From: Scleroderma bovista
Taxonomy: Eukaryota; Basidiomycota; Agaricomycetes; Boletales; Sclerodermataceae
Direction: 5' to 3'
DNA: 64,000 nt
Assembly: GCA_037178675.1 (NCBI GenBank)
Contig: JAYMGJ010000086.1
Coordinates: forward strand, 1-64,000
The translations under genes were made by a program, and so were the position numbers. The number at the start of each line of letters is the position of its first letter. Within the stretch, counting starts at the first letter, position 1. Of this stretch, positions 18,504 to 39,692 are shown in pieces. The notes under the pieces were generated by a model. It worked only from the letters and a program-made list of their open reading frames with translations. It did no database searches and was not told the origin of the DNA.

Positions 18504-18986
18504 GGCAGTGGAGCTTGTAGTTGAAAAGGTTTGGTGAACAGGGGCGGCGCTGTAGAGACAGTCCTGTCTCTAGGTGTAGAATTGGTAGTACTGATACTGG
18601 ACTCTTACCTTAGCTATGTAGGCTTGTACTTAGCTTACTAAGCAAAAAAGATCCTTCTCTTCAGGCACTCACCAACCACACCAAACCACAACCAAAGACC
18701 CACTAAACCTTCCAAAACACCAAACAGTCCATCAAAAACGCACAGACTCACATAACCCTGGGAACACGAACACTCCGCACGTCATCAGAGTGGTCCCCAG
18801 ACCTAAGGACGGCAAGAGGTTGACTAACAAGGATGGGGAATGGCAGGAGAAGCAGTCCTGAGGCAGGAGGATAGGAGAGAGCACCTAAAAAAGGCAAAAA
18901 GCAGAGGGGGAGGAGGACAAGGGCGAAGAATTGGAGATATCTCCGGAACGGCTGGGGTGATTGGCACATAATGTACCTACCTTGTC
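18504..18986. other. Gap between element B and the KDZ transposon
   Basis: There is no supportable gene in these 480 bases. The sequence is probably the leader of element B or older flanking DNA. A short inverted pair GAGACAG/CTGTCTC occurs near 18555. Confidence 0.4.
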
Positions 18987-19041
18987 CCGTCTTACACGGC
19001 CACCCGAAGGTGAAAATCGGCCGAGTGTCACGGGCCAGCGG
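18987..19041 (+). repeat. Left terminal inverted repeat of the KDZ element
   Basis: These 55 bases start CCGTCTTACACGG and end CCAGCGG. They match the reverse complement of 39303-39357 at 54 of 55 positions. An inner palindromic pair (CGGCC/GGCCG) could fold. Outside it, TGTACCTAC (18972-18980) loosely mirrors GTAGGTGCA on the right, so the true end may lie a few bases further out. Confidence 0.95.
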
Positions 19042-19319
19042 ACAGGAGCCCATGGATGGAGTATCACCGAGTAATACGGGTGGGCTTACACACTATGATT
19101 TTTTTACCATGTGATATGGGTGGGCTATGGTGGTAGTTAAGGAGGGGTTGTGGTAGGGATATAGGAATTGTCATCATGACATCTTGGTGGGCCACAATCT
19201 TACTGGGTGCACATTAATGGATGAGCCCAGATTTACTGGAATGCAAAGGTATGGGGTGGGCTAGCAAAAATAGATACTACTGCATACAGTAGGAACAAAT
19301 CTAATCAACCTACCAGCAG
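19042..19319 (+). repeat. Outer sub-terminal region with GGGTGGGCT motifs
   Basis: No gene. ACGGGTGGGCT, ATATGGGTGGGCT and GGTGGGCC occur here in the inward direction. The mirrored forms AGCCCACCCATAT and AGCCCATCC occur in the right sub-terminal region. Confidence 0.65.
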
Positions 19320-20470
19320 AACTGGCTCCATTACCGCGGGTGAACTACTGGGGTTGACTACCGCGGGTTGACTACTTACCATTGATGGACTACTACAGCT
19401 GACTATACATATACAGGCATCACACACCGCAGGATTACTACACGCCGCGGGATTACTACAAACCACGGTCCCACTACGGGCCCACTACTAACCAGGGTTA
19501 ACTACTCGCGCGGGTTAGGTTGGCCAGCAACTATTTCCAACCATGTACCTACCCAGGGTTGACCATCCACTGCAGGTCACACCGCGGGTTAGCTGCCCAA
19601 CACCGGTTATCCACCCACTACTGTTGACTACACAGCGGGGGTTGACTACACCGCGGTCGCACTACCAACCCAGGGGTGACTGCCCATTGTGGGTCGACTC
19701 CCACTGCAAAAACCGCGGGTTCAATACTTACTGTGGGTTAGCTGCCCACCATGGGTTAGCTGGCCTTGTTGACTACATAGTTCAGGTTTACTAACCAGTG
19801 GAGTGAGTACCCACCATGGGTTGGCCACAAACCGTGGTCCCAGCTTTAACCACGTACCTACCCCTGGTTGACCACCTACTGCAGGTTACACCGCGGGTTC
19901 AATACATGCCGCAGGTTAGCTGACCAATATGGGTTAGCTACCCACTGATGACTCTCCACCGCGGGTTGACTACCAACCGCGGTCGTACTACCAACCACGT
20001 ACCTACCCAGGGGTGACCGCCCATTGTGGGTTGATTATCCCATGCAGGTGACACCGCGGGTTCAATACATACCGCGGGTTGGCTACCCACCACGGGTTAG
20101 CTAGCTACTGCTGACCCACCGCGGGTTGGCCACCAACCAAGGTCCCAGGTCTAACCAGTACCTACCCAGGCTTGACGACCCACTGCAGGTTATACCGCGG
20201 GTTCAATGCATACCGCGGGTTAGCTGCCAACCACCCATTACCTAGCCACTGCCCTTGGCTACGCACCCAAAGCTAACTACCCAGTAGAGTGATTCCCCAC
20301 CACGGATTGACTACCAACCGCGGTTGCACTACCACCCATGATGGGTTGACTACCCACTGCAGGTTAGCTGCCCACTGCAGGTTAGCTAGCCACTGGTGTT
20401 GATTACACAGCACAGGTTGACTACCCAAGTGAGTACCCACCGCGGGCTGAGTACCAGAGGATAGGGCCAC
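19320..20470 (+). repeat. Left sub-terminal array built on ACCGCGGGTT
   Basis: About 1.15 kb of degenerate short repeats with the core TACCGCGGGTTGACTAC. Intact CCGCGG occurs about 16 times by eye, with many decayed forms (ACCGCAGG, ACCACGG, ACTGCAGG). No coding potential. Arrays of this type in other DNA transposons bind the transposase, so that is the likely role. Confidence 0.85.
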
Positions 20471-21786
20471 CCTGGGTCTGTCCCCTAAGGTACAGGTGAG
20501 CCCATATTGGGCTGACATGGGATATGGATGGGCCACTATTATACCATCCCATGTCACATGGGCAGGCTGCTATTATATGGTCCCATGTAACATGAGTGAG
20601 CCGAAATAACCTTCACCTAAGGTATAGGTGAGCCCATATTGCATCATCCCGAGTAGCACGAGTGGGCTGACACATTGACCTCCTCATGGGGTATGGATGG
20701 GCCACTATTATACCATCCCATGTCATATGGGCAGGCTGTTATTATATGGGCCCATGTAATATGAGTGAGCTGAAATAGCATAGTCCCTAAGATACCAATG
20801 AGCCCATATTCTATCATCACGAGTAGCATGAGTGGGCTGAGAATGGATGATTGCAATGTGATACGGGCTAGCCCATATATGATGCCATTATCCCATGTAG
20901 CACGGGTGGGCTTTGAATATACTGTCCCTCATCATGTACATCAGCCAAAATAGCAATGTCCCCTGAACCAAGGGTAGCCCATATCTATTAAGGTCGTATA
21001 CCACGAGTGAGCTTACACTATGATGTTCTCATTTGAGATGGACAGGCTATTATTACCCGGCGCCGTAGCATATGGGCCAGCCAAGGTAAAACTGTCACTA
21101 AGGTATAGGTGAGCCCATATTTCGTGATGCCGAGTAGTACGGGTGGGCTGAGGTGTGATGGGTCCAATGAGATATGGTGAGCCAGTGGATACCTGCATCA
21201 TCCGGTGTGTCAAGGGTGGGCTATAGATTTGTTGTGACCTGGAATACCAGTTGGCCAAAATAACATCGGCCTCGGACCCAACGGAGGGCACATAATTTCT
21301 AACCCGCATTGACATGGCTAGGCTGACATATGGTGTTTCTATCGAACGTGGATGGGCCCATATATGACTGGCTGACAGTAATAGTTGGGCTCACGGAGAC
21401 TGATATCTGGGTGTAAGGTATGTCAAAATGGCCGCAGCAACATGCCGCACCTGAAAGAAGCCGCGGTAGTAGAATAAATGCACAAAGTAGTCCCAACAAA
21501 ATGAATCCGCGGCGGAATCAAGACAACAATGATTGCCCTAGACATACCCGCGGGACACCACTGATGTACCAGGTATACATACAGCCATGTATCATATGGA
21601 TAACCCGTGGTGAAATAAGTGTTGTTTCTCCAATAAGCAACCCTGAGTAGCCGCGGCAATGTTGCCAGACACCTGTAGCACACAATATCATTTCTAAAAT
21701 TCCACTCCATGTGCATTTGCTAATTCTCCTATGAAGAGATATCAATAGTAATATACATCCCAGCTCTACAAATTCCTTTCCAGTAT
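20471..21786 (+). repeat. Degenerate GAGCCCATAT / ATGGGCAGGCT repeats, then spacer
   Basis: Up to about 21400 there are diverged repeats of roughly 80-200 bases containing GTATAGGTGAGCCCATAT, CGAGTAGCACGAGTGGGCT and CCCATGTAATATGAG. No gene is seen. The last 380 bases are the 3' flank of the dioxygenase gene and contain four CCGCGG sites. Confidence 0.6.
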
Positions 21787-23046
21787 TTACAGTATGGTAG
21801 GCCTCAACAACCTCTCCACACTATCAATCCTCATCCAATCCGCACACCTTGGAACCCTTACCCAATGGTGAATGTTATCCCTCATATAGTAGGTCAAACA
21901 GTGCCGGTTTCCTTCTACAGCATTTACCCCGTGCCTAAGAAGCCTCCCGGAGAATGCGACCGCAGTACCTGGCTTGTACACCAGCTCGATGCCGAGGGTA
22001 GGGATGGCCATGACACAGTCAGTGTATTCACCCACATTTACTATGACATCGTACCAACTGGCACGGGATTGGGGATCACGGTGGAGGGGGGTGGACCGGT
22101 TTGCAATAAGGGAAATATTGGTAAATGGGGTGGGCCAGAGGGATAAGGCCCTGTTCATGCCGGGGTCGTTTGTGGAAGACCAATCTCCCAATAGTTTAAT
22201 TCCTCGCATTCCATCGTCATACAGCTGTGGATGCATGATTGACAATGCACCCGATATAATTGAGGTCGGCTGAACCATAGCTTGTAACCACTGGAATCCC
22301 GCGGCGGTATTAAGGTCCCTGGACATGGAAGCATTTTCATGCTGAATATATTTTCATTAACGAATGTATGGCAGGAATGGTAAGCACTCACATAATGACC
22401 CATTTGATGCCTTGCAGGAGAAAGCTCCAAACAACCAGTCACAAAGGCCTGTGCCGGATGAAAGTACCGCGGGTCAGAGCGCCATGTCCGGCCAGTTATA
22501 CTGGCGGATAGTTGTGTATGGAGTGGACTTAATGCCTGCAGAATATTTGTCTACAGGTATTATAGAAAATGATGAACAAAAGAGGTATCGGATCATACCT
22601 GTGTTGGGTGTGCCAGGGCACCAGGAAGATACCACAAAGCTACAATTCCCCCCTCCCCCAAAATCATCGCTGGTTCATCGATAAGACCTGAAATAGTAGC
22701 AGGGAACTTGGTAAGGAAGGCTTGCTCCCTATCCGCGGTGGTCCCAGGCTCCATGGATGCCAATGATTCAGCGAGCCGGATGAGGTCAACACCAGAGTCA
22801 ACTGGACACAGATGAGCACTGGAGGAAGAGACATGAACAAGGCATACTGCGATGATTATATGCAGTCACTAAAGTTGCAACCATCTGGTGCATCCCAACA
22901 GAAAGGTCAACTGGGAGGTCAAGGGGAACAGGCGGTGCCGCGGTGCCAGAGTCCAGGAATGCCAAGGAACAAAAGCGGCGTCGCATATAACCAGCAACTT
23001 GGTAGGAAAGATGATAATCAGTGGGGTAAGACACAGGAGCAGCCAT
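21787..23046 (-). CDS. TET/JBP-like 2-oxoglutarate/Fe(II) dioxygenase
   Basis: This is a multi-exon minus-strand gene. The last exon (about 22316-21787) carries the catalytic double-stranded beta helix. SLIANRSTPLHRDPQS holds the iron ligands His-x-Asp, GTAVAFSGRLLRHGV the distal His, and RHCLTYYMR a candidate 2-oxoglutarate-binding Arg. An upstream exon reads PAQAFVTGCLELSPARHQMGHY before a GT-AG intron (about 22386-22317). Further exons (DLIRLAESLASMEPGTTADREQ, then GTAAPPVPLDLPVDL) extend to a plausible ATG at 23046. Enzymes of this family oxidise 5-methylcytosine in DNA. In mushrooms they are amplified together with KDZ transposons, and this copy sits inside one. The catalytic residues look complete. 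Exon borders upstream of 22440 and the start are uncertain. Confidence 0.82.
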
Positions 23047-23917
23047 GAAGGGGAGCTAAATAGGACACAAGCAAAGCCGGGATATTGTAGAATATTTATG
23101 TGGCGACCGCGGGTAGATTGAGGGGTGATGGCTGGATAATCAACGAAATTCAAACCTATAAATAAATTATATAGGAAAAATAAAGACAGGAAATGGAATT
23201 TACTGTTTTGGAGCGGTGCCAACATGTAGATACAAATCATGTTAGAAGATCAGCCGCGGGTGGAACCCACATCAGTAAGCATTGATTGGCCAAACCTGTA
23301 AATAATACATAAGAAGGTGAGCAATTGATACAATTTGAAATGTCACAGGTTGGTATAAAGTCCACGGGAGAGGTTGCTCGCAGCCGCGGTGACCGATCGG
23401 ACAATGGTGATGTATCAGTACATATGATTGATTGCTGATATCAAATGCAGGAGGAGAGAAATTATCTGACAAAGAAGAGAGGATAATACCAACATTGGAA
23501 TGATTGTTATCTCGCGGGATATTTGTTATCGATGGGTCAACTTGCCGCAGCCATTAGGCACGGCGAGAGATTCACAAAATAGATCGCCAATTCATATTAG
23601 AAAAAGGCAATAATGAGGTGTCAATTCCCTGACCAATTCTGTCTTTACATTTGGCATTCACAGCAGATTACTTATATTGCGACCGCGGTTATATGTCATC
23701 GCGGGGAGATTAGATATCTAATTGAAATCCAGACATACTAATCACATATAGATAGGAGAAAAGGGATGAACTAATTATATATCCGCGGGAGCAATGGGTG
23801 ATATTGATCAATGCCAACTGGGTGGGGGGTCATTGTTTGATAAACAATGGTAGGCCGTACGTGGGAATGTTGGTGGATCAATTATAAATATCAATCATTA
23901 CTCCCCATTCTACACCC
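23047..23917. other. Divergent intergenic region inside the KDZ element
   Basis: This AT-rich spacer separates the divergent dioxygenase and the next gene. I see no coding sequence, only CCGCGG sites near 23107, 23254, 23384, 23684 and 23783. It probably holds both promoters. Confidence 0.5.
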
Positions 23918-24716
23918 ATGGATTCCTCCAGTATTCACGCACGCACACTCTCGGCTACTTTACAATATGCGGGTATCAGATTCCGTCGGTTCGTACATGC
24001 TTTGCAGCAGAGAGGGGAAGATTCGCTGTGGGAGAAGATCGATTGGCATGCCCATGTATTGGCGGAAGTGGTGCGATGCTTGAATTCCAATCACATCAAA
24101 TGGGCTGACCAATCCTGCAGGCAATTTTGGAGTGATTACTTGCGGTGTGCAACAAGCATGGGCTGGTGATGCAGGTTCCCGCGGTTGCGGCTCAAGTCAT
24201 GGAATGGGTGTCTATTGGGGACCCAGATGCACCAACGTTGATGTGCCAGATCAAAACCATCAAGGTCTTCAAGGCGTATCCCGCGGAAGCCAGAGTCCAC
24301 AGTCCACGGGCCACACCGGGAGAATGGTGGGTATGGGGTATCCCTGGCAATGCGGTACCGCGGCAAACACTCAGCCAGCTAGTCAGAGAGGCACAGCAAT
24401 TCTTTCCGCAGAACCAGGTGAGTTCACAACGATATGAAAACACATTGCTAATCATCATTCATTGCAGCCAGGGGATTATGGCATTCCGAGCCTATTCAAA
24501 GTCAATGAAACCGCGGGGTTGGGGATCGAGGATATCAAATTACAAACCCAGCATCTCTTGAACGAAGTGGATGAGAAGATCTTTTGTCAAAATGCACGAT
24601 TACATCATCTCGTCGACCGCATGAGCATGGTGGAATACCTAACAGATTCTCCCGATGAGCTGGAGGAGAAGTGGGCGGTGTCCGCGGACAAACTTTGGAG
24701 GGGAACAGACCATTGA
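23918..24716 (+). CDS. Unknown KDZ-element gene
   Basis: ATG at 23918 opens an exon (MDSSSIHARTLSATLQYAG) of about 75 codons. The following coding segment (AVAAQVMEWVSIGDPDAPT to REAQQFFPQNQ) is in another frame, so an intron or shift lies near 24143-24172. A clear GT-AG intron at about 24419-24468 joins QNQ to PGDYGIPSLFKVNETAGLG. The stop is at 24714-24716. The protein is about 230 residues, helical, with no recognised domain. It converges on the transposase gene. Five CCGCGG sites lie in it (near 24178, 24281, 24359, 24511 and 24681), and most are read in the nCC GCG Gnn phase. I do not recognise the function. Confidence 0.6.
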
Positions 24717-25026
24717 ATGTATTCCATAATGACACATAAAATGTAGAATTATTATGCATGTGGTGTTCAATGGGTGGCTTCTGAACAATCAAAAGAATAC
24801 TTATTGGGGAAGCCATTAACACCACGGCTGCATAAAGGTATAGTAACTCAAGTATCCTGTGAGATATTTTGGATGGCCTTGGATGGTAATGGGCTTAGGT
24901 GACATGGTAGGGTAAGTGCTATTCACCAATATTGGCACAGCATGTTTGCCAACCATAGCTTTGCACACCGCGGCCACGACTCATCATCTCCAATTCCCAG
25001 GATGTAAAAATAATACAAACAATCAT
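24717..25026. other. Convergent intergenic spacer
   Basis: The 310 bases between the stops of the unknown gene and the transposase are AT-rich and contain one CCGCGG near 24970. No gene seen. Confidence 0.5.
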
Positions 25027-28000
25027 CTATTGGCAAAGTTTACTCAATTTGTTGTACATGTCATATTGCCTTGCTGAATAACATGCCATGCCGCGGTCAC
25101 AGTCCAATGCTGCTTTCGCTGCTTTTTCCTCCCAGAAGTTTGCCCGCTTTCTGAAGAAGTTATGTGTCCAACCCTGTTCTGAAATTATGAGGTCCACCTC
25201 CTCAGTCCATCGATCTTGTCTTGCCTTCGCCCGTAACCAATGAACCCGGTAAACTATTTGAAATTGTTAAGTAGGTATATATGACCGAAGATTTCAAAGC
25301 TTACACTCTGACATCCAATCATTTTTATCAGTGTCCTTTGGAATGTCCATAGTCCAGAACCATGCCAAGGAGTCATGGCGATGGCCCCTTGCATTGGGAT
25401 CGGACACCGCGGTACTCACTGTGAGATCCTTCTTGTTCAGTATTTGATACCGGTCAAGAATGCTTTGGTCAGCTCCCAAAGCAACCATTTGCTTTCGACA
25501 CTGATTATAGACCGCGGAATATCTTTTGACCAAGGTGTCCAGGTCCGATACCTTTTTCCAAGCGCGGGTTGTCACAGCATAGTTTTTCCCATGTCGGACC
25601 TCTGTGCGAAATAAAATTGCCTTGTCTGCGAGAGCAAGCCGTATTTCATGCAGAGCATCATTGGCCTGGCCTTGTCTGAGCTGAAGTTCTTGCTCCACCA
25701 GGCCATTCAGCTCCAATTCACCGCACCGCCGCAATCCCATATAGGAAGGCAGCGGCAGTATGGCATGTTCTGCATTCCCTGGGGATACAGTAACGAAAAT
25801 ACCATCTTCATCACTCCCTGGGTCACCATTGTCACGGCTATCAAGTCCACTGTCCCAGTCGGCCCCAACAAATGGTGCCGCGGTCTGCAACAAGCTATTG
25901 ATTTGAGACTGTAGCCTGTCACGACGGCGGGAAATGTCAAGCCTTTGGCTTTCGGTAGTTCTTGAATCGATCCTGCGTGCATCCAATAAGAGCACTATCT
26001 GAGACTCCTCCACCTTCAAGGCCCTTGCCATCCATGTGGCGGATCCTCGCAGTGCCCCTGCCGCGGCTTGCATTTCTATGAGGCTAATCTCCATGGATTT
26101 AATACTTGGTGCTTGCCATGGGATTTCAGCCTTGTTCTGTATGTATTACACGAGGACATACCCTTTTCTAACCGAACTTCAAATATATCCATGGCCGTTG
26201 GATTGGATAGCCTCTCCACAAGTGCCTTCGACTCTTGGGCCTTCCAAATATCACGAATGTCTTCAGGCACAGTTGTATCCAAAGTAGCAAAGGCATAACG
26301 AGATGATGAAAGATTCCGTTGGGCGGCAGTTAGTTTCCTCTTCAATGACAAAGCTGGAATATTTGAATACCGGTGCAATACCCGCAATTAAGGATCACTC
26401 ACGCATGCGGACCATCTTCAAGAAATTACTGTCATTCATTTGGAAGTCCAGCATTTCCTGCCGATGAGGGGCAGCCATTCCCCGGGTGGAGGGGGAAATA
26501 ATATTTAAGGACGACCAGAGAGTCTCCATTATTTCCCCGTCCACATTGCCTACTCCAGGAATGAAATTAGGGGAATACCTCATGAAACATTCCGATTGAT
26601 GTCCATGGACATGCCATATACCAATGCCGGGTTGAATCTTCAGTCTGGGTGGGAGAGACAAAAACCGGTTCTCTTCTATACGCCGATACAGGTTTTTGCT
26701 GTATTGACAATTGATGTCATAGAAGTTTACCACCCGCTGTTGGTGGTCCATTCTGTGATGCACTGCATGCACCAAGGAATAATCCATGTTGACTTGCCTA
26801 TCCGCGGGTCAATGAAGCGATTTTATATGGGAGCCGCGGACATACTGCTCTCCTTTTTGGAAATCAACCATGGCATGCGGAACAAAGCACCCATGTCTAG
26901 CACAGGCACATCCACCAATTCCAGTTGATGCCAACTGACTTCGACTAGTATTGGCCTGATTGACCGCACGATGATTGCTACAGTCCGATTTCTAATGGCA
27001 ACATGAGGAATTACCGCTGCTCAAGTAAAAGAGGTCATACCTCCACTCGATTTGTGCTTCCTGCTAAATAGGACTTATAAGGCTGCGATGTTACCATGAA
27101 CCCTTTTCCATCCATCAACCAGACTTCGTTTGGAGCTTGTTTGAGCAACATATGTTCGGCTTTGAAATTTCCATCCATAGCAATGATCCTCGAATATTTC
27201 CAGCTGTACAAATCAGTTGTATTTGCAAATAATAGAATAATTACAACCTATACTCACTGTGTGAGATCGACCCCTCCCGCGGGCGGTAAATTTACCCCAG
27301 GTTGGGGACATGCGGGGCAAAAGAGGACCAGCTCCCCTGGCCCAGGTTCCTCCGAGATTCCGTGGAATCCTTGCCACTTGAGAAGCTTCAACAATCTCCA
27401 TGCCCTTGACAACCTCAGCAGATCTCTGTACCTATTCTATTTCATCCGCGGTGTCAGTGCCGCGGTAAACAAAAGGTTACTTCACTTACTGGCACCGCAT
27501 GTGGGAATGCATTGGATGTTAGTCTCTGCAATTTACTATAGTAGTTCATCGCAGTGGTGCCACATTCCACATTGTCCCGGATAAAATCATCCAGCACCTG
27601 GAAGGTAAATGCAGTCCTGGGACTTTTTGTTGTCGCAGGGAAAAGGCCAGCCATCATAAGTTGCAGATGTGAATCCTCTGAACCATCACAGCTGCAGTAC
27701 CGAATGTCGCAAAAGTGCACCCCATTAGTGTGCACCAAAGTTAGGAAACTTCGGTCCCGTGGTCTAGCTAGATGAGGTGGGCTCCCATCGTCCTCCACAT
27801 CTTCCCAAGCATCTTCATCATCACTTGCATTATTCCCGCGGCTATACCCTCCACTAGGACATGGTTTTCCACCGTGGCCCAAGTGCATTACAAATCCAAT
27901 CTGCTTTATTAATTAACATGTGGATATGGTGAAAGAACTGACCCACCAGGCGAAGAGAGAAGTCCTCAAAGAAGCTTCCAGTCCACCTCTGAATCCGATG

Positions 28001-29600
28001 GAAGGGACCGACCTCGTGTGTATCAAGGCAACAGTTTGTGCAGAAGATTGGCCTATGAGCACATTCAGTGCACCTAATTGCCCCATCCTTTCCACACCGC
28101 ATACAGATCCTTGATGCAGGGGGTGCCTCCATTTCCAGGAGCACTGACAAATATTTGCCTTTCCAGGGCAGCCAGTCTCGCAGATAGTGGTCCTATGATT
28201 CGATGAGATATATATTAAGAGTGTGGAAGGTGCATCAGACCTGGTTCCTTGGCAATTTACATGCTCGCAGGGGTGGATCATCTGTCATAGAATATGCCTC
28301 TACAGGCTCATCTGGAAGGAAACTTGTGTGCTCCAATGCCGATGAACCAGCGCGAGTGGGAGACTGATCATCAGCTCTTTCAATGCGTGCCTTTTTCCGG
28401 GGTGGAGCCTTGACAATCTTGTCCTTGGACTGTCTATGTCAAGACCGGTTCTCCTCAACGATCTTACTAGGAGGTCCAGAGGTGCAGGGAACTAATGAGG
28501 AGGTAAGTCCAGACACTAGTAGGTGCTAGTTAGTGCGGAGAGTCAAGTCCGGGTCAAACGAATGAAGTCTGGGCACTAGAGAAGCACAGGGAGTAAGTCC
28601 GGGTTTTTGCGGAGTAAGTCCAGACCGCGGGAAAGTGGTCCGGAGTTGAGCGCAGCTTGTCCGGAGTGAAGGACATCCCAGAGGTGGGATAGTCCTGAGA
28701 GGTCTAGCGTCGAGTCTGGGACAGAGGTGGCTTTTGCCCTCGTGCAAGTAGGAGACTTGCTAGGATCGGACATAGGACCAAGGGGACGAGATAGGATGGA
28801 GGCCGGAGTTGGCCGGAGTTCAGGAGTTCAGATGAACAGATGGATTTAGGAGAGCATGGTGGGTAGTACAGAGTGGGGAGTATCTTAGTCGAGATTTGAT
28901 CTAAGGACTACTAGGCCAGAGTACGGTAGTTTATATAGTAATGAAACTAAGGTGAGTATATACGGTGACAAGTAAACACCTTAATGTCGAGACAAGGGAT
29001 GGAGCAGAAGCAGACAGGAAAATAAACCAGGTACAAGAAAATAAAGCAGGGACAGGAAAATAAACCGGAGCGGAAGCAGACACGGGGAACTAGAGTTACA
29101 GGGACGACGGAGGAAAAGCAGGGACCTCTAAGGGTCAGAGGTGGACTTCTAATGTTAAGTCGATGTGGACCAGAGGAAACCGGAGGAAGTGAAGTGTGCA
29201 CGACCGGAGGGAGTCCAGAGTGCGGAGTTGGACATGGAAATGTCCTAAGCCTTTGGTGGACCTGACAGAGGAAGTGGAGCAGGAGCGCAGTGAGCCGGAG
29301 GGATGACTGCTACATCAGTCGGAGAAACCGGAGTAGTGACTAGTGGTTACGGGTCATGGAGGAGTTAGACCGTGGATCTGTCTGACGTAGCCTGAGGTTT
29401 TCCGGAGTTGAGCTGGAGTGCAGCCTGGAGATGGCCGGACTAGATCCGGAATCTAAGGAGAGGTCAGGCGGGCCAGGGTTAGACCGGAGTTGCGACTGAG
29501 AAAAGTATGGATATGACAGTCTACCAGATCTTACTGTCTTCCATGTCACCTGTGTTACAGGTGTAGAGGGGCCTACTTTTACTACCTTGGACTTCCCCAT
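25027..29600 (-). CDS. KDZ transposase with CxC2 cluster, interrupted by a solo LTR
   Basis: ATG at 29600 starts MGKSKVVKVGPSTP. After about 27 codons the exon is broken by the LTR 28437-29518, and the frame resumes with QSKDKIVKAPPRKKARIE, which contains a nuclear-localisation-like basic run. The CxC2 cysteine cluster (CMRCGKDGAIRCTEC, then CTNCCLDTHEVGPFHRIQRW) spans about 28105-27990. LVHTNGVHF and PRTAFTFQVLDDFI follow near 27730-27590, then PGPGELVLFCPACPQPG near 27320. MDGNFKAEH is near 27170, and CARHGCFVPHAMVDFQKGE near 26900-26860. The conserved block GIGIWHVHGHQSECFMRYSP to MNDSNFLKMVRM ends near 26395. C-terminal helical exons run to TAG at 25027. Apart from the LTR, the gene looks intact. 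It would cut and paste the 20-kb element. Confidence 0.9.
28437..29518. mobile_element. Solo LTR inside the KDZ transposase gene
   Basis: This 1082-base sequence starts TGTCAAGACCGG, ends ATATGACA and is flanked by the duplicated GTCTA (28432-28436 and 29519-29523). It has no coding sequence. CGGAG occurs about 16 times by eye. Removing it with one target copy restores the transposase frame. Its start resembles that of the E1 LTR (TGTCACGACCGC), but the body is different. It is a relic of recombination between two LTRs. Confidence 0.88.
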
Positions 29601-30026
29601 GACTGTCTCTGGATGTGAAGCTCACAAAACAACCACTTTTAACCTTGAAATGCCTCATTGCAATACCTTGAACTCGACCAACTGCATCGGATTGGGATCC
29701 TCCGGTGTCAATCCACTCGGTCGGGACCACGATCAGGCACAAATGGAACCTTACCAATTACGGCCTGAGATCTTGAGATTGGCACACAAGCGTTGTCAAA
29801 ATGGACCCTGAGCAACATGGACCTTTCCATGTATGGTAAGACCTTTGCAGATACCCAGGGAACCTTACCAAATATTCCTCGGGCGCCGTATTACATCTGC
29901 CCATACATGGTAAAGTAAGATCAAGGGTCCCTGTGACATGGGAAGCAAGTGACCACGTGAACTTCAATCAACAGGCCGGTATGTGTGCCGGAATTGGGAA
30001 CTCGCTGCAAAGATTCCACCTCACCC
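29601..30026. other. Divergent promoter region of transposase and next gene
   Basis: This 426-base spacer lies between the transposase start and the plus-strand gene. It holds an inverted pair near 29816-29912: ACATGGACCTTTCCATGTATGG and CCATACATGGTAAAG can fold. No gene seen. Confidence 0.45.
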
Positions 30027-32635
30027 ATGTCCGAATCTGAGTACAGTGAGAGCGATAGCGGTGAGAGGTCTGATGCCACTGGGCAAGGCAAGACCCCCCT
30101 TCGCAAAGATGAGGTCGTCATTGTCCAGGAGAAACTGGAACAGTGGATGGCGGCTGACGCAACAAAAAGGAAGTCCATTTTCAAGGACATTGCAAGCAGT
30201 GTTCAAAGGCTGGAGGCCAACAGGACACTCAAGAGTCACCAATGGGTGATAAAGAAGAAGGTGAGTGATCCCTCACTTATGGAGAGGTTGGCTTATTTTG
30301 TATTTTCATAGGCCATTCAGAATTGGCTGTATAATCACTCTCGCACTCGGAAGAAAAAACAGCTCATCAAATATGGCCGCAGGTGGACCGCCCGCATGGT
30401 AATAGCGGACCAAGAGAAGGCAAAAATAGATGATGTGCTTGCCAGAGCAGGACATGCACCGGGTTCCAGCGGGTATATTAAAAATTATCAGAGGGCAGTG
30501 GGCAAAGTGATAAAGAGACTGACCGCGGAGAACATCAAGCGGGCAGAAAAGACAGCCAAGGAATGGAATGATACCCACCCCCCCCCCAGAGATCCAAGCA
30601 AGGTGAGACTCTTATCCCATGGCAGCATGGTACTGAAACTTCAGATAGAACCGCGGAAGGAAAAGGTCGGAAGTTTGCCCGCGAATTTTCAAAGGAAATG
30701 TGGAAACAATGCGGTGCCAGAGTGGTTGTGATGGCTGCTTGGAAAGGTGCCACGGGGGATGTTATGTATGGCCTGTGAGCGTGGTTAATGACTGCATATA
30801 TTATTACTGAAACACATAGGCACGACTTCAATGACGAATTGGGCGATGGGAAACTCTTTGAGGGCTGGGACAGCGTGGAGAACAAGTGGGAGCGATATGC
30901 TCACCAGGTCTTTGGTGTGGAGGAGGAAAGTGGTGAAGATACCGAGGATGCGGTTCCAAGAAAGATTGTCAAATGTAAAAGGCGCCCGCAGTTCGACCTT
31001 CCAACAGATGCAGATGGCATCCCCTACATCCCGGTCATCCTGAATATGAACACCCAGGACAAAAAGGATGTAATACGCGCATTCATCAGTTTTCACTATG
31101 GTATGTAAATAATTTCCATGGATCAAACACTCACTGTGTCACAACAGGACAGGCTTGTGGCCGGTCCGATGTTGCTGTCCCATGGGCAGCAATTGTGCTT
31201 GACCGCAGCATATATATATCGGGCAGATATTGGCCCACCAATGTCGCATTCAAGGAACCATCCAGGCTTACGAATAAGGAGGCGACAGAAATATTGGAGT
31301 GGTGGCGAGATAGGCAACTGAGTGATCCCACGAATACCTTCAAGGTTAAGAGGTGGTTAGAGTCGGATGGGTCGCTACAGGCCGCGGTTGCAAACACCAA
31401 CCACAAGAGTGCGGCAAAGAGAACAGGCAAAAAGCGCAGGGAAGGTAAATATTATCTTATTAAATTTGCAAACACTCAGAGCCATTGATAGACATGTCAA
31501 ATGATGAGGACAAAGAGGACACTCAGCCCGCGGTGCCGCCTCATGGAAATGCCATGGGTCCTGCTAAGGATGCGGGGGTGGTGAGGGATAGCCACGGCCA
31601 AGAACATATGCAAGGTAAGAATATCTATTCATGCAATGGGATATTGTTGATGTGTTGCAGGGAATGCTGAGAATGGCCGCGAAAAAAGATCAAAGCGGAA
31701 GCATGCTGGAAAAAATATAGAGGGTAGGTTGGATTACTATAGGAACATACATTGATATGTTTTCATAGATTCCAGTTCGGATCTGTACGACGGTGACTCC
31801 ACAGGGCATCACAGTATTAAAGTGGGCCCCCCAAACACAGCATATTTTATGCCTGCTGGGTCCGGGAATCCTCCGACCGCGGGTACCGCAGTGTGTGTCA
31901 AACCCAAGCCACGGGTAAAGACAAAAGGTGGGAGTGTTCTTATGAAGTCCCACATAGAACTCACCTTATATATAATATTTATATGCAGAGAAACAAAAGA
32001 CCGCCAGAGATCAGATAGTGACCACGGGTGCTTCTGTTGCTCAGCCATTGACAAAGAGCAAAGGTGAGAGTGTTCCTATCAAGTCATACATGCAATTAGG
32101 ACAATTGATATGATACAATATCCAGGTAAACAAAGTGCAGTGGCAGGAAAGAGTAAACCCACGGTGGATGTGTCTGCCGCGGACATACCCCGCTCTGACT
32201 CACTGCTTAAGCCCAAAGGTAATGATCTTCGGATGGACTGAATATATCCTGACGCTAATATATGTAATATCTACATGCAGACAAACATCAGGGAGTCACT
32301 GATAACAGCACTCACTCCATGCAGGTGACAAGTGCCGGCCCTTCCTCCACCGCGGCTCAACCAAGGTTGAAGACAAAAGGTAAGAGTGCTTCGTATTGCA
32401 TCACAAATAAATTTATTCTTACAAATTTGATATACGTCCAGCCCAGCCCTCCGAAGTTGCCAAACGGAGTGGTCCGTCAGTTCAAGTGCCCGCCGCGGGT
32501 CTTTCGAGGGCCGCCATTACACAAGGTATGCATTGTGGCCCCATCAAGCAAATTACTCATAAGGCTCAAAAGAAGATGCAGGAGATTCATCACTCCAACT
32601 CCAACACAAATGCGATGGCGGGGAAAAGAATGTAG
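30027..32635 (+). CDS. Large multi-exon KDZ-associated gene with repeated 3' exons
   Basis: The ATG at 30027 begins MSESEYSESDSGERSD. Exons are joined by short GT-AG introns: KSHQWVIKK to AIQNWLYNHSRTRKKKQL, then PRDPSK to AEGKGRKFAREFSKEMWKQ. After those come HDFNDELGDGKLFEGWDSVE, and then QACGRSDVAVPWAAIVLDRS to KEPSRLTNKEATEILEWWRD. The region to about 31443 resembles a large family of unknown proteins in mushrooms. The 3' part is a run of small exons ending in a Lys-rich tail (PRVKTK, LTKSK, LLKPK, PRLKTK). The last exon ends with MAGKRM and TAG at 32633-32635. Function is unknown; the charged, basic tail suggests nuclear or nucleic-acid work. Exon borders are by eye. Confidence 0.65.
31769..32460 (+). 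repeat. Tandem exon-intron modules in the KDZ-associated gene
   Basis: Four consecutive units of about 140-160 bases each have a short exon ending in a Lys-X-Lys tail, a donor GTGGGAGTG, GTGAGAGTG, GTAATGATC or GTAAGAGTG, and an AT-rich intron ending in TGCAG or CCAG. They look like duplicates of one module. Confidence 0.55.
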
Positions 32636-33273
32636 TAAGGCGGCAGTCGGTCCAGCCAAAAAGGCTCCCGCCCAGGCTGGAGGATTATGATGACGCCCGT
32701 ATACAAAAGAGGCGCCGAACGTAGGTTTATTTCATATGTATTGTAAAGTACATACATCAAATATGGGACCACTGGGTGGGTCAAAACAAGGTGATGATCA
32801 CGACTGCGGTATGTGTATAATAGCCACAGCATGTATATAGGAGTTGTACGTAAGGCCGCGGTATGGATAATGCCCGGGGTAGTAACAACCAAGGCGTCTC
32901 AGCACAGTGGCATCATGTACCATATCCACAATATGTATGATAGCCGCGGTATTTACAACTATTGACCTCAGCCAAAGGTTTGAATTATAACTGGGGTGAC
33001 AGTCGCAAGCACATATGTCTGTAATAGCCGCGGTATATATGAGAGCCGCGGTATATATGATTCACGTGGTACCATGATGTTTAGAACCATTTAGAACAAA
33101 AGGTGTGGATTACAGCCATGGTGACCATCGCTACTGCGGGGACTATCACAAGCACAATGTGTGGATCCAAAATCAATCACTCCATGGTGCCCATCATACT
33201 CACCATGCTAGTGCTTATCCCTGTACAAACTGAATGTTTTTTGTTCAAGATAAAAACAGACAACCAATTGTAA
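32636..33273. other. Spacer with CCGCGG-centred short repeats
   Basis: There is no gene between two convergent genes. TAGCCGCGGTAT occurs near 32944 and 33030, with related forms near 32857 and 33047, mixed with decayed copies. Confidence 0.55.
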
Positions 33274-34684
33274 TTACAACATTGATGGGTGTAAATCTTC
33301 TAATTGATCCATGGCAATCTGTGTGCCCTCCATCTCACCCTTATCAATTTGCTCCAACTTATCTATGATGTCAGCATAATGTGCCCTCAATGCAATGAGC
33401 CTCCTCCACTCCCGAGTTTCTTCCACCAACTTGTCCGCATATTGCATGTACATCGCAATAAGCGGTTTGTCGTAGGAGTTGTCCAGGCGGGTAATTTTGC
33501 CGTCCTTGGGGTGGAAGCGGGCTGCAATCTGTCGCGCTGTGCTTACTATTGATTGTCAATATCAATTTAATAGAGATGTCAATGCACTCACATTCATGCC
33601 GCGGGCAATTGAATTTACCTTTGTAAATTTCCAGGTCGGCCATCATTCTCAGCAAGTGCCACCATTCCCCTACGATGGTGTCAGTGTAGGAAACTCCAAC
33701 CAAGGCCTAACTAACCTTCCATATCCTTGGGACATGTTGCAGGGAATCCGCTCACCGGGCCCGATTCCGCTTCCCTTCCCTTTCCCTTATCCACTAACCT
33801 ACGATGTGCAATGGGGCTCGTACCAACTACCCTTGGCAAGGAATTCTCAAAGAATCTTTCCTCTGGGTTAGATCCGCTCTCAGTTGGCTCACCTGTCCCT
33901 GAGAAGAGTGGGGACCCAGCCATCGATGGTGATCCGTGGGGTGACTTTGAAGGGGTGGACTGAACGGACGAAACTGACATTGGCGATGTCAGTGGTATGT
34001 ATAATGCTGGCTGTGCAGGTGGAGTCCATCCTTCATTGTCCTTCGACGCGTCAGTATCGGAGGAGTCAGGTGATGTTGCGCGGATGGGTGTGATCGGCCG
34101 GGGTGATGAGTTTCCATCGGAGGTAGGGCTTGGGGACACTTCGGGAAAGGTTTGTGATGGCGGTAGAGGGGGAGGGATCCATCCCTGGCTATCCTCTGAG
34201 GTGTCGGTGTCGGATGATGAGTCAGACGATGTTTGAGGCATGGGTGTGCTGGCTACATCCCCGCGGTCGGGTGTTGATGTGGGTGGAAATGCAGGAGGGT
34301 CCCACTCGGGACTTGGCAACACCCCTGGTTCAGCCCAGATGTCAGACCTCGCACCCACAGGTGATTCAAGCATGGGGAACGAACCTTCATCCACTTCAAT
34401 AGACATCGGGTCTGCCGCGGGTGGAGGGGGAGGTTCATCGGGTGGACACCACCCAGTGCTATTATCACTTGCTGTAAACATAAAATGAGTACTGTTAAAG
34501 TGTACATGAAGGATACATACATGTTCTGCTCAGAGACCGTCTTTTTGGAGGTGTCCACCCTGGGCTACCAAATAAACCTGCCCAAAATCAATCTCAAATG
34601 CCAAAGACAGTTCCAATATAACAATTTACCAGGGTTGGCTGCTCCATCATTGATAAATCTAACATTCCTAGCTGGTCCGGTCAT
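33274..34684 (-). CDS. Proline-rich KDZ-element protein with GWxPP repeats
   Basis: The ATG at 34684 starts MTGPARNVRFINDGAANP. Two small introns (about 34632-34580 and 34523-34477) lead to a long Pro/Ser/Asp-rich exon with three repeats of the form GW(C/I/T)PP followed by prolines, each but the first preceded by SSDTDxSxDxx. A basic KGKGRE motif is near 33790. Two further introns (near 33692-33647 and 33619-33546) precede a helical C-terminal exon (RQIAARFHPKDGKITRLD, LVEETREWRRLIALRAHYAD) that ends at 33274. The C-terminal part could be a coiled-coil interaction segment. Function unknown. Inside the element it faces the Zn-cluster gene head to head. Confidence 0.6.
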
Positions 34685-35540
34685 GGTTGGTGGTTGTGTA
34701 TGAAATAAAGAAGGCTGGCAAGGGCTTGGTGTTCACAGGCCGCGATCATATATGTTCGGGTCGAATGCTTACATAAGATATTTCCCACCATTAAGACATC
34801 TGGAATCTAGGGTGGAATTCGGGTACTATATATCACTCTCAATGGATTGCAATTGTTCTATCTTTTTGTAGAAATGTTTAGGTATGAACAAGCCTAATTG
34901 TAGCGCTGTAGGTCAGTATTTGCTGATAACAATAGACAATGAAACAGGTTTAGCACACCCGCGGTCATTGTTCCGTCACTAGACATTGCGGGTATACTTT
35001 TCTATGCTTTCCAAGAAAGCAGAGAAATTTCACACATTATATTTGTAGTGGACTTCAGGTGTCCAGCCTACATTTCAACATTTACCCGACGAAAATGCCT
35101 TCTGATTGTGTTTACCTTCCGCGGCTATTTTATCCAATAAGGGTTAGTGTGAATAATGTCGCTTGCACTAGCTATGCAATCACAATATGCAATCACAATT
35201 GTACAAGCATTGCTGTGTGTGGTCTATTTGATACTAATACTGCACCCATTATACTGTTAAATCTAAAATACTGTATGTTACCGCGGTGGGTTCCCTTCAA
35301 AAATCCTATGAGACCTTCAATTCCATTTATACCTCGGTGATTAAATTTACACGTTGATGTTGGTGCCTGACTAGCTAAACGGAGATTATTAGCACGTGGC
35401 TTGGCGCCTGATGACATACCAATGGTCAGTCTGGGTGTGTGACATCTGCTGACCTAATCATAATAAATGTTCAACATACCGCGCGGCTTCCACACCGCAA
35501 ACTTGTTTTCCTCTCTCACTCATCTCACTCCTACAAAACT
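34685..35540. other. Divergent intergenic region
   Basis: This 856-base AT-rich spacer lies between two divergent genes. CCGCGG occurs near 34962, 35120 and 35282. No coding sequence is supported. It probably holds two promoters. Confidence 0.45.
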
Positions 35541-37532
35541 ATGTCCACCCAACAATCCGAAATCCAAGTCCCATCCCCATCCAACGTTCCCGAAGACTTC
35601 GGAACACCCATGACCCCTGGAGAAGTTATCGCGGATGCCACCAGCATTATTACCGGCAGAGTAGCAGCTATTAAGAAAACGAAGGATACTGCGTCATGGC
35701 TGGAGGTCCATCGCGATGTCTGGGCCCAACTGGTGAGTCCAATATTCAACATAGTTCAATGCCACTAACAACCGTCAGAACCGCGTCAGAGAGGTGGTGG
35801 GGAACTTACCCCGCGGTTTCAGCATTCCCCCCATGCTCATGGCCCTTGATCGCGACCTGGAAGATCCATCCGAGGGTATTACAACGTGGCCAAAGTGGCC
35901 CCAAATGCTCCAATCCCCTGCAGACAGTGTCTCTGACCATCCGTGGTGCAACCGCGGTGAAAATATTCCGGAACCGAGCAATGAAGGCAGGGTGGATGGT
36001 GAGCAGGCAGAGATGCAGAGGGTTGATAAGGGAAAGCAAAGGGCATATGAGGTGAGTAGCTATGAGGTCAGCCCATCCGAGCCAGTTGGTGCAGAGGAGG
36101 CAAGAAGTCGTCGCCGTGGACGTGAGCAGACTCGGGGACGTAGCCAATCCCGTCGCCCTCGTAAACGCGTCAAGTCCGCCCCCATTGTCGACAGCGATGA
36201 CGAAGACACTGCGAAGCCTACCCGCCGCGGTGTAACCAAGACCTACGACCTTCACCATCCCCCTCCCGACTTCCCAATCCTTCCCGCCGCCGATCGATGT
36301 GACCACTGCGCCCGTCGGATGTTACCCTGTGCCAGGAAGGAGGATCGTGCATGCTTCCAATGCAACAAGGGGAAGCATGGGTGCAGCTTGTCACTCAAGC
36401 GCGTCAGGTCGCGATCGCAGTCCCGTGCACCAGCTACACGGACAAGCCAACCCGACCCCGCCCCATCACCAGCACTTACTGCTGCCCCAACCCGTACCAA
36501 CCCTCCCCGTTCCGCTCGCAAACACAAAGCCAAAAGTCCCGCGCCCATGGATGTCCCCTCTCCACGTCCAGCAGCCACAGCTGGACCTTCCACACTTGGC
36601 CCATCAAGGGGCAGACGTGAAAGTAGGTTAAATATTTCCTTTGCTCCGTTCTGCTGAAAATCTAAACAGAATTTGATGGAGTGCTGATAGTGCAACCGCG
36701 ATGGCTTTCAAAATCAAGTGACCGCGGTACAAGCACCGAACACAGCGAACATACGACCACGGCGACGACTACAAGCGCCTGCAGCGAATGTTCGGACTTG
36801 AAGGAGAAGCTGGGCGATGTGACACGTAGGCTGGAGGCGCAAGAGGTTCAAATGGACACTCTTCGCCAGCTCATGGAGAGTCTGAGGTCAGGTACGCTGA
36901 TTGTCCATCCAGAACTGCCCCCTCCCCCTTCCATGCAGACTTCCACCCCACTTGGAAGTCCTGCATCGATTTTCCGTGCGCCCTCGCCTGCTGCATGCTC
37001 CCCCGACGTCCCTCCTGCAGACCATGGACCGGATCCCACACCGCCTGCGGTTGCAAGCATGGAATCGCCCCCACAGCCGCCTGCATCATCTTTGCCTGAT
37101 GCGTCCACCACCATCGCGATCCATGTGGGATCCATTGCCCCCGACCTCTTGAACACTCTCTGGGGTCCAACCGCGGTAGAAGACAGACATCCGCCTCGGT
37201 CTCCCAGCCCTGCTGGCGATGACCATGTGCCTCCATCACGCCCCCCTCCCTTCATCATCTCCACAGACGATGCAATGGCTGTGGATGAAGCCAGGGATTC
37301 TGTCCCCACCACCGCAGTAAGTCCTATTGATTCACCCATGGTTCGCTACTTACATCCCCTGTAGTCTCCCAACGTTACAGAAGGTGATGGAATGCCTCTG
37401 GATCCCCAAGCGATTCCTCCCCCCATCATCATCATAAGTCCCGCCAATGTCCCCGATAACTCAGTTCCCGCACCCGCGGTTTCAGATGAGGGATGTGTAG
37501 GCGCTGTGGAAGGGAATAAAATGGACATTTAA
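35541..37532 (+). CDS. KDZ-element gene with exact Zn2Cys6-type spacing
   Basis: The ATG at 35541 starts MSTQQSEIQVPSPSNV. Exon 1 ends at about 35731. The second exon begins NRVREVVGNLPRGFSIPP and carries an Arg/Ser-rich basic block (SRRRGREQTRGRSQSRRPRKR). It then has RCDHCARRMLPCARKEDRAC followed by FQCNKGKHGCSL (about 36295-36390). The cysteine spacing CX2CX6CX7CX2CX6C falls inside the fungal Zn2Cys6 consensus, although the usual RxKxKCD loop is different. A further exon carries a leucine-rich coiled coil (CSDLKEKLGDVTRRLEAQEVQMDTLR, a typical dimerisation segment), then a Pro-rich tail to the stop at 37530-37532. This layout (basic, zinc cluster, coiled coil, acidic/proline tail) is that of a DNA-binding regulator. 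Binding is not shown. Confidence 0.7.
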
Positions 37533-38519
37533 TATTTTTTTTATCTCCATTCATACATTGTTTTTGCACAGACTATTTGCTTTATTCATACATCTTTGTA
37601 CTTTCTTTTTTACAACATTTCTTTTTGCCACCAGACATTGTTTTTTCGGTTCACATGTATTAAATTCTTTTTTGTCCTTTACTTTATGAATGCAATTTGT
37701 TTGTTTCACCCAAAAAATATTCTACCCCCGATTGTGCACAGATGCTGTTAATTATTTAGCAGCCCTGGTATGCCAACTGAGTCCTGCCCACTTATCACCA
37801 GGGGTCCAGTAATTCGTCGTAAATAATTTCATTTGAATGGTACATTTCACTGAATTGTGTGTGGTACTATCTACAACAACCCTAGTGTTAGTTTTTATTT
37901 AATACTTCCTTTATATAGGATAAACCTATATACCAGTCATCATTTAATATACCTGCGGTCACTATGTATTTTTGTTCCCACAGTAATAGGTGTGTTACTG
38001 ACATCAAATACCAATAAGTCGCCTATATGCTGCAGCATGTCCTCTTTCCAAACATTGGTTCCATCCTGTTTCATACGCTAGTGGTCCCTAAACCTAACCC
38101 CCAGTAGTTGAATTAATCCCACGGCAGTTTCCATTACCTATTGTAATTACATCCCCGCAGCAGTTCCCCTTACCTATTGTAGTTATTACACCCCCCATGG
38201 TAGTCACACTTCACCCGCGGTAGTGACTGCTTATTTGAAATAGCTATTACCATGGTGCCATTAGCGTAGTGGTGTCCCTTGTGTTGGACTGATTTGAACA
38301 TGCTCACCTATATACCTATATTATAAAATCATGGGTCATACCTACTGCGCCATTATTATAACTGACCATGGTTCTAGCATAGTCCTGTTCTGTGTTGTAC
38401 TGATTAGCCGATTTTTATTCTGGTGTGGTTGTATGCATCAGCCTAAGGAGGTGCATGTGGTTTACATTATCACACAATATGGAATTATACCTGCCTGCAA
38501 TCATTACACATACCAAGGG
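37533..38519. other. Non-coding AT-rich right shoulder of the KDZ element
   Basis: No gene is supported. Poly-T runs near 37535-37680 may mark the end of the preceding transcript. One CCGCGG near 38216 and decayed GGTAGT motifs lead into the right array. Confidence 0.5.
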
Positions 38520-38960
38520 TAGTGACAACCAACCCGCGGTAGTAACGAGCAAGCCGCGGTAGTGATGACCAAGCCACGGTAGTGATGACCAAGCCACGGT
38601 AGTGATGACCAACCCCTCGTAGTGATTACCAACCTAGTGATTATTAACCCGCGGTAGTGATTACCAACCCGCGGTAGTGACCCATACCCCGTGGATGTGA
38701 TGACCAACCCCTCATAGTGATTACCAACCTAGTGATTATTAACCCGCGGTAGTGATTACAAACCCGCGGTAGTGACCCATACCCCGCGGTAGTGATGACC
38801 AACCCCTCAGTGATTACCAACGTAGTGATTATTAACCAGCGGTAGTGATTACCAACCCGCGGTAGTGATGACCAACCCCTCATAGTGATTACCAACCTAG
38901 TGATTATTAACCGCGGTAGTGATTACCACCCCGTGGTAGTGACACTTTACCCGCGGTAGG
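38520..38960 (-). repeat. Right sub-terminal array built on AACCCGCGGTAGTGA
   Basis: Short units of about 20 bases (AACCCGCGGTAGTGATGACC and variants with ATTACC) are organised into a higher-order block of about 120 bases repeated three to four times. Intact CCGCGG occurs about ten times. The core is the reverse complement of the left array core, so the two arrays face each other. Confidence 0.88.
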
Positions 38961-39302
38961 AACACCCCTGATTATTGACAATAATCCCGGGGTAATTACC
39001 ACGGTGCCATTTGTGTATTGGTGCCCCCTGCTACTCTGATTTGGTTTAGCTCACCTATACACCTACATGATAATACAATATGGGCTTGTCCAATGACATG
39101 AATGAAAGGCAGGCCTGGGCCCACCCGAATGATATAGTGAGCACAAATTATGTGCTCCCATTAATTTCCATGACAATATTTAATTTGACCCATTCACCCT
39201 CCCCTTAATTGACAATCTAGCCCACCCATATTACATTGTGATAATATCTAAGTAGGTAGCCCATCCATGGCAATCGATAACAAATTATTCCTGGGCTACC
39301 AT
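38961..39302 (-). repeat. Right outer sub-terminal region with AGCCCACC motifs
   Basis: No gene. TAGCCCACCCATATT, TAGCCCATCC and GGGCCCACCC mirror the GGGTGGGCT motifs near the left terminus. Confidence 0.6.
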
Positions 39303-39357
39303 CCGCTGGTCCGTGACACTCGGCCGATTTTCACCTTCGGGTGGCCGTGTAAGACGG
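39303..39357 (-). repeat. Right terminal inverted repeat of the KDZ element
   Basis: This is the reverse complement of 18987-19041 with a single G/A difference near the inner end. It is followed by CCTAAGTAGGTG. The left end is preceded by CTACCTTGTC, so no exact direct duplication is visible. Confidence 0.95.
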
Positions 39358-39692
39358 CCTAAGTAGGTGCATGGGGTCCGGCGCTGAGATATTATTTGAG
39401 ATAAGTACGCGTGCAATGCCCTCTGCGGTATTCCACTCTCTGCGTTCGGCTGTTCCCTCCTCGGGGGGTTCAGTCTCACCTTCGCAGTGGGACCATTCAA
39501 TTCAAGCATGGGCCAGATTTGGCCCTTCCAGGCCACCCAATTCTCATCTTTCAGGGGTTCAGGTGTTTTAAAGGAGGATATAGCGCCGAGGAAGCATTTG
39601 TCTTTGTACACTGGCGCTTCGCCAGGATTTTGTTCGGGTGCGGGGCCTTGTCCAAATCCGTCCTCGTCTCCATACACGTCCAGTGCATCCAT
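39358..39692 (-). pseudogene. Copia-type gag N-terminal fragment
   Basis: The minus-strand frame starting at 39692 (MDALDVYGDEDGFGQG) has the block FKTPEPLKDENWVAWKGQIWPMLELNG, which resembles the start of Ty1/copia gag domains. A possible donor (AAGGTGAGACTG) follows NGPTAK, after which similarity is lost. The frame then runs into the KDZ right terminus, so the gene is truncated there. No matching continuation is visible on the left side of the KDZ element. Confidence 0.5.

Follow-up and report, generated by a model that had tools for sequence, protein, structure and literature searches.

The window analysed here, a stretch of 64,000 nucleotides (positions 1 to 64,000 of contig JAYMGJ010000086.1 in the Scleroderma bovista assembly GCA_037178675.1), holds a KDZ transposon that carries a TET/JBP dioxygenase gene and is filled with the six-base palindrome CCGCGG. 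The element occupies about 18965..39378 (approximately 20.4 kb), limits placed by eye where its copies cease to match each other, slightly outside the 19320-39000 of the original prediction. In the same comparison it begins with CACATAATGTACC... and finishes with ...GGTGCATGGGGTC, and no target-site duplication was recognised at its ends. The left terminal inverted repeat (18987..19042, plus strand) is 56 bases long and differs by one mismatch from the right one (39302..39357, minus strand); a query made from 18992-19055 gave 40 scored matches in the genome among 101 candidates. Membership among KDZ transposons follows from a PF18758 transposase domain joined to a CxC cysteine cluster. The gene concerned lies on the minus strand at 25033..28385 (exons approximate; PF18758, E 3.2e-31; PF18803, E 3.1e-27), and its product has a cysteine-rich CxC2 part, for which comparison with solved structures gave three matches, all weak, and more cysteines upstream of it. 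The TET/JBP dioxygenase is encoded on the minus strand at 21787..23150 (exons approximate; PF12851, E 5.8e-18), and its best match among solved structures is CcTet (7vpn, E 1e-22). A zinc-cluster-like protein is encoded on the plus strand at 35415..37364, with a cysteine cluster, then an arginine/serine-rich stretch and then a part that looks coiled-coil-like by eye.

By scripted count CCGCGG occurs 88 times in the window, with 82 occurrences inside 19320-39000. Sixteen make up a left subterminal array (19334..20445, first letters at 19334-20440), 56 are dispersed through the interior (21461..38220, first letters at 21461-38215) and 10 make up a right subterminal array (38534..38956, first letters at 38534-38951), the word being densest in the two arrays; the by-eye tally of about 55, 16 and 10 in the original prediction was within one of these figures. 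The word was also said to be rare outside the element, which held, although the sites there number six (at 5366, 7125, 45477, 49773, 55461 and 56699) rather than about three. The whole genome has 7400 CCGCGG in 51.8 Mb, or 0.143 per kb, against approximately 4.0 per kb in the element, an enrichment of about 28-fold. On a single strand of the element 4.1, 2.2 and 42.6 sites are expected under Markov models of order 0, 1 and 3, respectively, and CCGCGG ranks first among six-base words under all three. The recount against a third-order model that had been set as a test therefore gave an excess (82 against 42.6), even with an expectation that is inflated by the motif because the model was trained on the element itself. 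An order-4 model of the element expects 74 sites, places the word at rank 148 and leaves no excess, because 164 of the 178 CCGCG/CGCGG on both strands belong to the 82 CCGCGG. The window flanks (43.7 kb) hold 6 sites against 11.4 expected from an order-3 model of the flanks. Regular spacing was rejected, the mean interval being 305 and the standard deviation 300.

The genome contains, among the matches listed, many relatives of the transposase, the dioxygenase and the zinc-cluster-like protein. Families were named by the identity of the transposase core to that of the window: F1 (97-100%), F2 (92-96%), F3 (82-88%) and F4a-F4d (approximately 75-79%); five further F1 copies, three F2 copies, one F3 copy and one copy each of F4a, F4b, F4c and F4d were compared. 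CCGCGG is the top six-base word in 5/5 further F1 copies, in which the original prediction had proposed to look for it, and likewise in 3/3 F2 copies, the F3 copy and the F4c copy (in F4c the word was read in copy C766 and the zinc cluster in C306, the two copies being assumed to belong to one family). Genome-wide, close CCGCGG pairs occur 176 times against 38 for a reversed control, and among the first 50 of the 176 places, 44 lie within 16-20.5 kb of a terminal-repeat, TET, zinc or KDZ match.

Comparison of these copies separates two regimes of site evolution. Between F1 copies, sites are lost almost solely by CpG transitions, and motif CpGs decay like other CpGs in all five copies (all-site P 0.086 to 0.75); in C21, for example, 93/110 motif CpGs are kept against 435/481 other CpGs (P 0.086), and a coding-only comparison in C227 points toward faster motif loss (P 0.045). 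The motif is therefore unshielded in inserted copies, and protection is not the cause of its abundance. Between F1 and the three F2 copies, 72/96, 73/96 and 70/96 motif CpGs are kept against 198/451, 230/451 and 188/450 other CpGs (P 5.3e-6 or smaller), and between F1 and F3 the figures are 38/54 against 116/312 (P 9.4e-6), with 48 of the 56 interior sites alignable for F2 and 27 for F3. F2 also keeps the motif's outer C and G better (94/96, P about 4e-5), with no significant difference in F3 (P 0.25). The contrast is larger in non-coding DNA of F2, as in C178 with 24/34 motif CpGs against 15/71 others; the F3 non-coding comparison has just one alignable site. When a site is counted if present in any copy, 44/57 are kept between F1 and F2 against 572/1395 GC-rich CpG hexamers, and 18/30 between F1 and F3 against 135/958. 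Some sites are specific to one family, with unrelated hexamers at those places in other families, which indicates turnover of sites.

The word could instead be a by-product of mutation or composition, if CpGs within CCGCGG escape methylation and survive, or if small repeats have spread it. The element is indeed CpG-poor (observed/expected 0.63, falling to 0.54 when the motif is left out; window flanks 0.91), as would be expected of methylated DNA. However, the CpG-richer flanks hold only their 6 CCGCGG, so survival alone cannot yield 82, and the decay of motif CpGs within a family at the rate of other CpGs speaks against shielding. Counted on both strands, intact CCGCGG is found 112 times against 3.7 expected and its single CpG-decay forms 64 times against 26.4, while one-step neighbours of the non-CpG kind show hardly any excess (72 against 66.3). 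Composition and CpG survival were rejected as the cause by these three results. Dispersed small repeats were rejected as the source of the interior sites, which have no bases in common beyond the six letters and thus look independently formed, and the by-product explanation as a whole is scarcely credible. We read the pattern in the aligned copies as the work of selection in propagating lineages, with inserted copies decaying neutrally. The selection proposed in the original prediction is thereby well supported, conservation between families being well above that of other CpGs.

The sites extend into coding sequence. In the interior, 31 sites fall within frames conserved between families, at 2.74 per kb and in codon phases 4/18/9, and the other 25 fall outside them, at 4.47 per kb; the frames were chosen by tblastn at E 1e-3 and include some short runs that are doubtful. 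The sites are thus found in exons and non-coding DNA alike, as first noticed, but they are not just as dense in both, coding density being somewhat lower. Twelve strictly open exons (5172 bp) hold 9 CCGCGG; 2000 synonymous shuffles of them gave 1.54 on average and at most 9. A codon or amino-acid cause was rejected on this excess and on the use of all three phases, in agreement with the earlier statement that codon usage does not explain the word.

The remaining families have other words. CCGCGG occurs 5 times in F4a and not at all in F4b and F4d, where the top words are CGGCA words (F4a), CACGGT together with CCGG words (F4b) and ACCGGT (F4d); every leading family word contains CGG. In the interiors, with tandem arrays excluded, CGGCA is found 92 times in F4a against 24.7 expected, ACCGG 69 times in F4d against 9.4, and TCCGG and GCCGG 62 and 55 times in F4b against 21.4 and 19.4. 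CGGCA reaches 7.97 per kb in F4a against 1.34 in the window flanks, and ACCGG 5.55 per kb in F4d against 0.83; the densities in F4b are less clear (CGGCA 4.05, CCGGC 4.55 and ACCGG 4.05 per kb). A short family-specific motif, as known for VANC-type systems, is therefore clear for the CCGCGG, CGGCA and ACCGG families and not for F4b. Half-sites are arranged as everted CCG-N0-CGG in F1-F3 and F4c, and F4b has everted CCG-N8-CGG 38 times against 2.7 expected, mostly in arrays near its ends. One zinc-pair grammar common to all families was sought and partly found, the interiors of F4a, F4b and F4d being without a clean dimer spacing. The array pattern of F4a has 417 occurrences in the genome, against 0 for the reversed control, and the first 100 of these places are all less than 10 kb from a TET/KDZ match, 99 of them less than 5 kb. 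TACCGGTC showed no genome-wide excess (473 + 457 against 1463 + 1484 for the control). In the F4a copies listed, CGGCACA arrays stand between or beside the TET and transposase genes, and on C188 (L027-L028) the TET gene has the strand opposite to the F1 arrangement.

Three possible binders had been suggested, namely the transposase, the zinc-cluster protein and the dioxygenase. Zn2Cys6 proteins have the cysteine spacing CX2CX6CX5-12CX2CX6-8C, and the cluster in the window, at 36298..36384 on the plus strand, reads CX2CX6CX7CX2CX6C. The spacing was found in 13 of 14 fetched elements and in C306; in the fourteenth (C766) the contig ends before the position of the cluster. Twelve of 19 homologues from other sources have the full pattern. 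In alignment A2, whose 16 rows are 6 genome copies and 10 homologues chosen from those 12, six cysteines are invariant in every row, and in alignment A1 (12 rows, one of them a homologue without the full pattern) five show no variation and the third almost none. The loop between cysteines 2 and 3 is alike in the CCGCGG families (ARRMLP in F1, ARRQLP in F3 and IRRALP in F4c, from C306) and reads VQRDRR, KRAGRA and RKGDKM in F4a, F4b and F4d. In the C305 copy (L016) the zinc gene has an in-frame TGA right behind the cluster. The zinc gene and TET are often found near KDZ genes of this clade: among the matches listed, 113 KDZ matches of this clade have a TET match within 12 kb in 88 cases and a zinc gene within 16 kb in 61, in a count that drops KDZ matches shorter than about 100 amino acids and misses neighbours past contig ends. 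Nine distant KDZ matches listed have neither within these distances, the TET and zinc queries being F1 sequences, with which remote versions could be missed.

Direct or everted CGG repeats are the usual targets of zinc-cluster proteins; Pdr1 of Saccharomyces cerevisiae, a member of this class, binds the pleiotropic drug response element TCCGCGGA (excerpts of PMC8211738). The protein of the element resembles Pdr1-type Zn2Cys6 regulators in its six-cysteine spacing, the everted CCG/CGG site and, by eye, the coiled-coil-like part after the cluster; it differs in that it falls under the Pfam cut-off, is encoded by a transposon and has dozens of sites per element, within genes and without the T..A flanks being kept. 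Among the three candidates it is the predicted binder that fits best, since CCGCGG is an everted CCG/CGG pair, a site of the zinc-cluster type, and since CGG-cored words of another kind go with zinc proteins that have diverged further.

Such a protein might bind the word merely as an ordinary activator or autoregulator of the element genes, independently of TET. That the element encodes a zinc-cluster-like protein, that the site of yeast Pdr1 has CCGCGG at its core (PMC8211738, in excerpt) and that several intergenic spacers hold the word would all agree with this. However, gene bodies abound in sites, few sites lie where the transposase gene starts, and the full TCCGCGGA stands at just 1 of the 56 interior sites. 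The site-poor stretch at 27842..29442, with one CCGCGG (at 28625), covers the transposase gene start and the preceding spacer, which separates this gene from a divergent gene on the plus strand. A gap of 1.6-2.6 kb spans the transposase start in 8 of 9 copies compared (from 11 fetched CCGCGG-type copies, C227 and C305 being left out); it is the largest gap in 6 of the 8, the second in C766 and the third in C210. We consider an ordinary regulatory role independent of TET quite improbable.

The transposase itself could be the reader, with the end arrays used for synapsis, the interior copies as further sites and no role in silencing. The subterminal arrays do hold the highest density of CCGCGG, and the transposase has its cysteine-rich CxC2 part and the cysteines upstream of it. 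A non-autonomous element at C43:18192-22390 (L001/L002; 4.2 kb), with the same terminal repeats as the full element, also agrees with this, as its 14 CCGCGG all lie within approximately 1.1 kb of the ends. However, selected interior sites lie up to 10 kb from either end, and end recognition should not need them. Identity to the families with other words is 75-79% for the KDZ core and 68-70% for CxC2, against 32-35% for the zinc protein, so that the domains of the transposase have diverged less; its N- and C-terminal parts diverge more (51-61% identical), and the argument from divergence is therefore not decisive. We regard recognition by the transposase as unlikely, though it or another element protein may still be the reader. 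For mobilisation in trans the end arrays may suffice by themselves, and the interior sites of full elements may serve the element genes rather than movement.

The word could also be the preferred substrate of the TET enzyme, or be read by another protein such as the product of the conserved plus-strand gene. TET is 55-59% identical between F1 and the other-word families, and the plus-strand gene evolves fast (28-55% identical to other-word families where matched), so both have diverged as well. On the other side, the frames compared with Pfam gave no match to a DNA-binding domain that passed the cut-off, and we know of no TET/JBP sequence preference for a CGG word. This leaves the suggestion only a slim chance.

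The explanation that we favour starts from what was observed, namely the excess and dispersal of the word, its family specificity, its conservation between families, the unprotected decay of its CpGs within a family, and the joint occurrence of zinc and TET genes with KDZ transposases of this clade. CCGCGG would be a selected, family-specific address, to which the zinc-cluster-like protein would bind all along the element, in its body as well as in the end arrays, genes included. The bound protein would bring or help the TET/JBP dioxygenase along the element, open its chromatin, or do both, and host CpG methylation would thus be countered on the word-bearing DNA of the own family and not on other sequences. 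In related families both the zinc protein and the word have changed. We infer which protein binds, that it cooperates with TET and that silencing is thereby countered, and for this element we hold the explanation to stand about evenly between right and wrong. The wider form, in which each TET-bearing KDZ family has its own CGG-cored, CpG-containing word over its whole length and its own zinc reader that recruits TET, demethylates only its own family and switches together with the word, is more tentative, and we would sooner expect it to fail somewhere than to hold throughout.

Several results weigh against this explanation. The putative zinc-cluster assignment draws on the cysteine spacing and on two Pfam matches under the cut-off: Zn_clus (PF00172) reached E 0.016-0.017 in 2 of 16 rows (15.7 and 15.6 bits in F4b and F4d against a curated cut-off of 21) and did not match the protein of the window. 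Comparison with solved structures gave no match for the zinc-protein profile and one, weak and unrelated, for the F4b protein, and 7 of the 19 homologues, some of them short, are without the full cysteine pattern. Words and proteins follow one phylogeny, so correlation cannot single out one protein. F4b has three CGG words equally frequent in place of a single word, and F4a, F4b and F4d rest on one copy each, with only F4a extended genome-wide. Close ACCGGT pairs occur 900 times in the genome against 483 in the control and are common outside KDZ elements; among 15 hand-picked positions of ACCGGT clusters, 8 are near TET/KDZ matches and 7 are not. The middle of the C43 element (approximately 2.3 kb) has no sites, so interior sites seem unneeded for the movement of that derivative. 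Finally, the scarcity of sites over the transposase gene start is odd for a simple activator.

Besides the TET, KDZ and zinc-like genes, the element has further genes, two of which are conserved in most families compared. Reading frames conserved between families lie at 23888..24716 (plus strand), a conserved multi-exon gene at 29961..32718 (plus strand) and a less conserved gene with a serine/proline-rich part at 33274..34529 (minus strand). Frames at 16593-18569 and 39285-39737, both on the minus strand, resemble pieces of retrotransposon gag/pol by eye, and the element may thus sit in a nest of transposons. The copies on C145 and C210 (L005, L013) have identical sequence in the right flank and different left flanks.

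The nearest published relatives are the TET+ Kyakuja/KDZ elements of Agaricomycetes described in the main text of PMC12730594. The likeness lies in the KDZ transposase accompanied by a TET/JBP dioxygenase close to CcTet, which stands beside the transposase here too, and in the CA of the left end. Two Kyakuja families are described there as having 5'-CA..TG-3' ends, a 7-bp target-site duplication and no terminal inverted repeats; the S. bovista element, in contrast, has the 56-base inverted repeat, a GGGGTC right end and no recognised duplication. With its ends differing in this way, we file the element as a TET+ KDZ transposon and not formally as Kyakuja. A term search of the main text of PMC12730594, its supplements lying outside the search, gave no occurrence of the terms CCGCGG, zinc, Zn2Cys6 and subterminal; the excerpts consulted of PMC8889193 and PMC12810828 have nothing on the word, and searches of the open-licence literature, judged by listings and the beginnings of abstracts, brought up no account of a word of this kind in KDZ transposons.

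The nearest precedent in mechanism is VANC, a protein encoded by the Arabidopsis VANDAL transposons, which, in excerpts of two reports, recognises short motifs that are particular to each family and lie in non-coding repeats, and strips methylation over the element (PMC5735166, PMC10398659). Both systems are families of DNA transposons whose short family-specific motifs lie partly in tandem arrays and change between related families. They differ in that VANC motifs are reported from non-coding repeats, whereas the sites of the KDZ element also lie in exons, with 31 of 56 in conserved frames. In addition, the putative KDZ reader is zinc-cluster-like, the words contain CpG and a TET/JBP enzyme is aboard, demethylation by KDZ elements being our own inference.

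Fungal transposons with TET/JBP genes are already known, and the published speculation for mushrooms, in the main text of PMC12730594, is that AG-type TET works without target specificity, that is, without a choice of target. An address in the DNA of each family, together with a candidate reader, would directly explain, in a way open to experiment, how a selfish element might free itself of methylation while the remainder of the genome stays silenced. Several natural pairs of reader and word are at hand for swap experiments, and selection on a short DNA word can be seen working through coding sequence. If true, the system would be a fungal counterpart of VANC, coupled to a demethylase and extended over the whole body of the element, in which families separate by joint change of word and reader.

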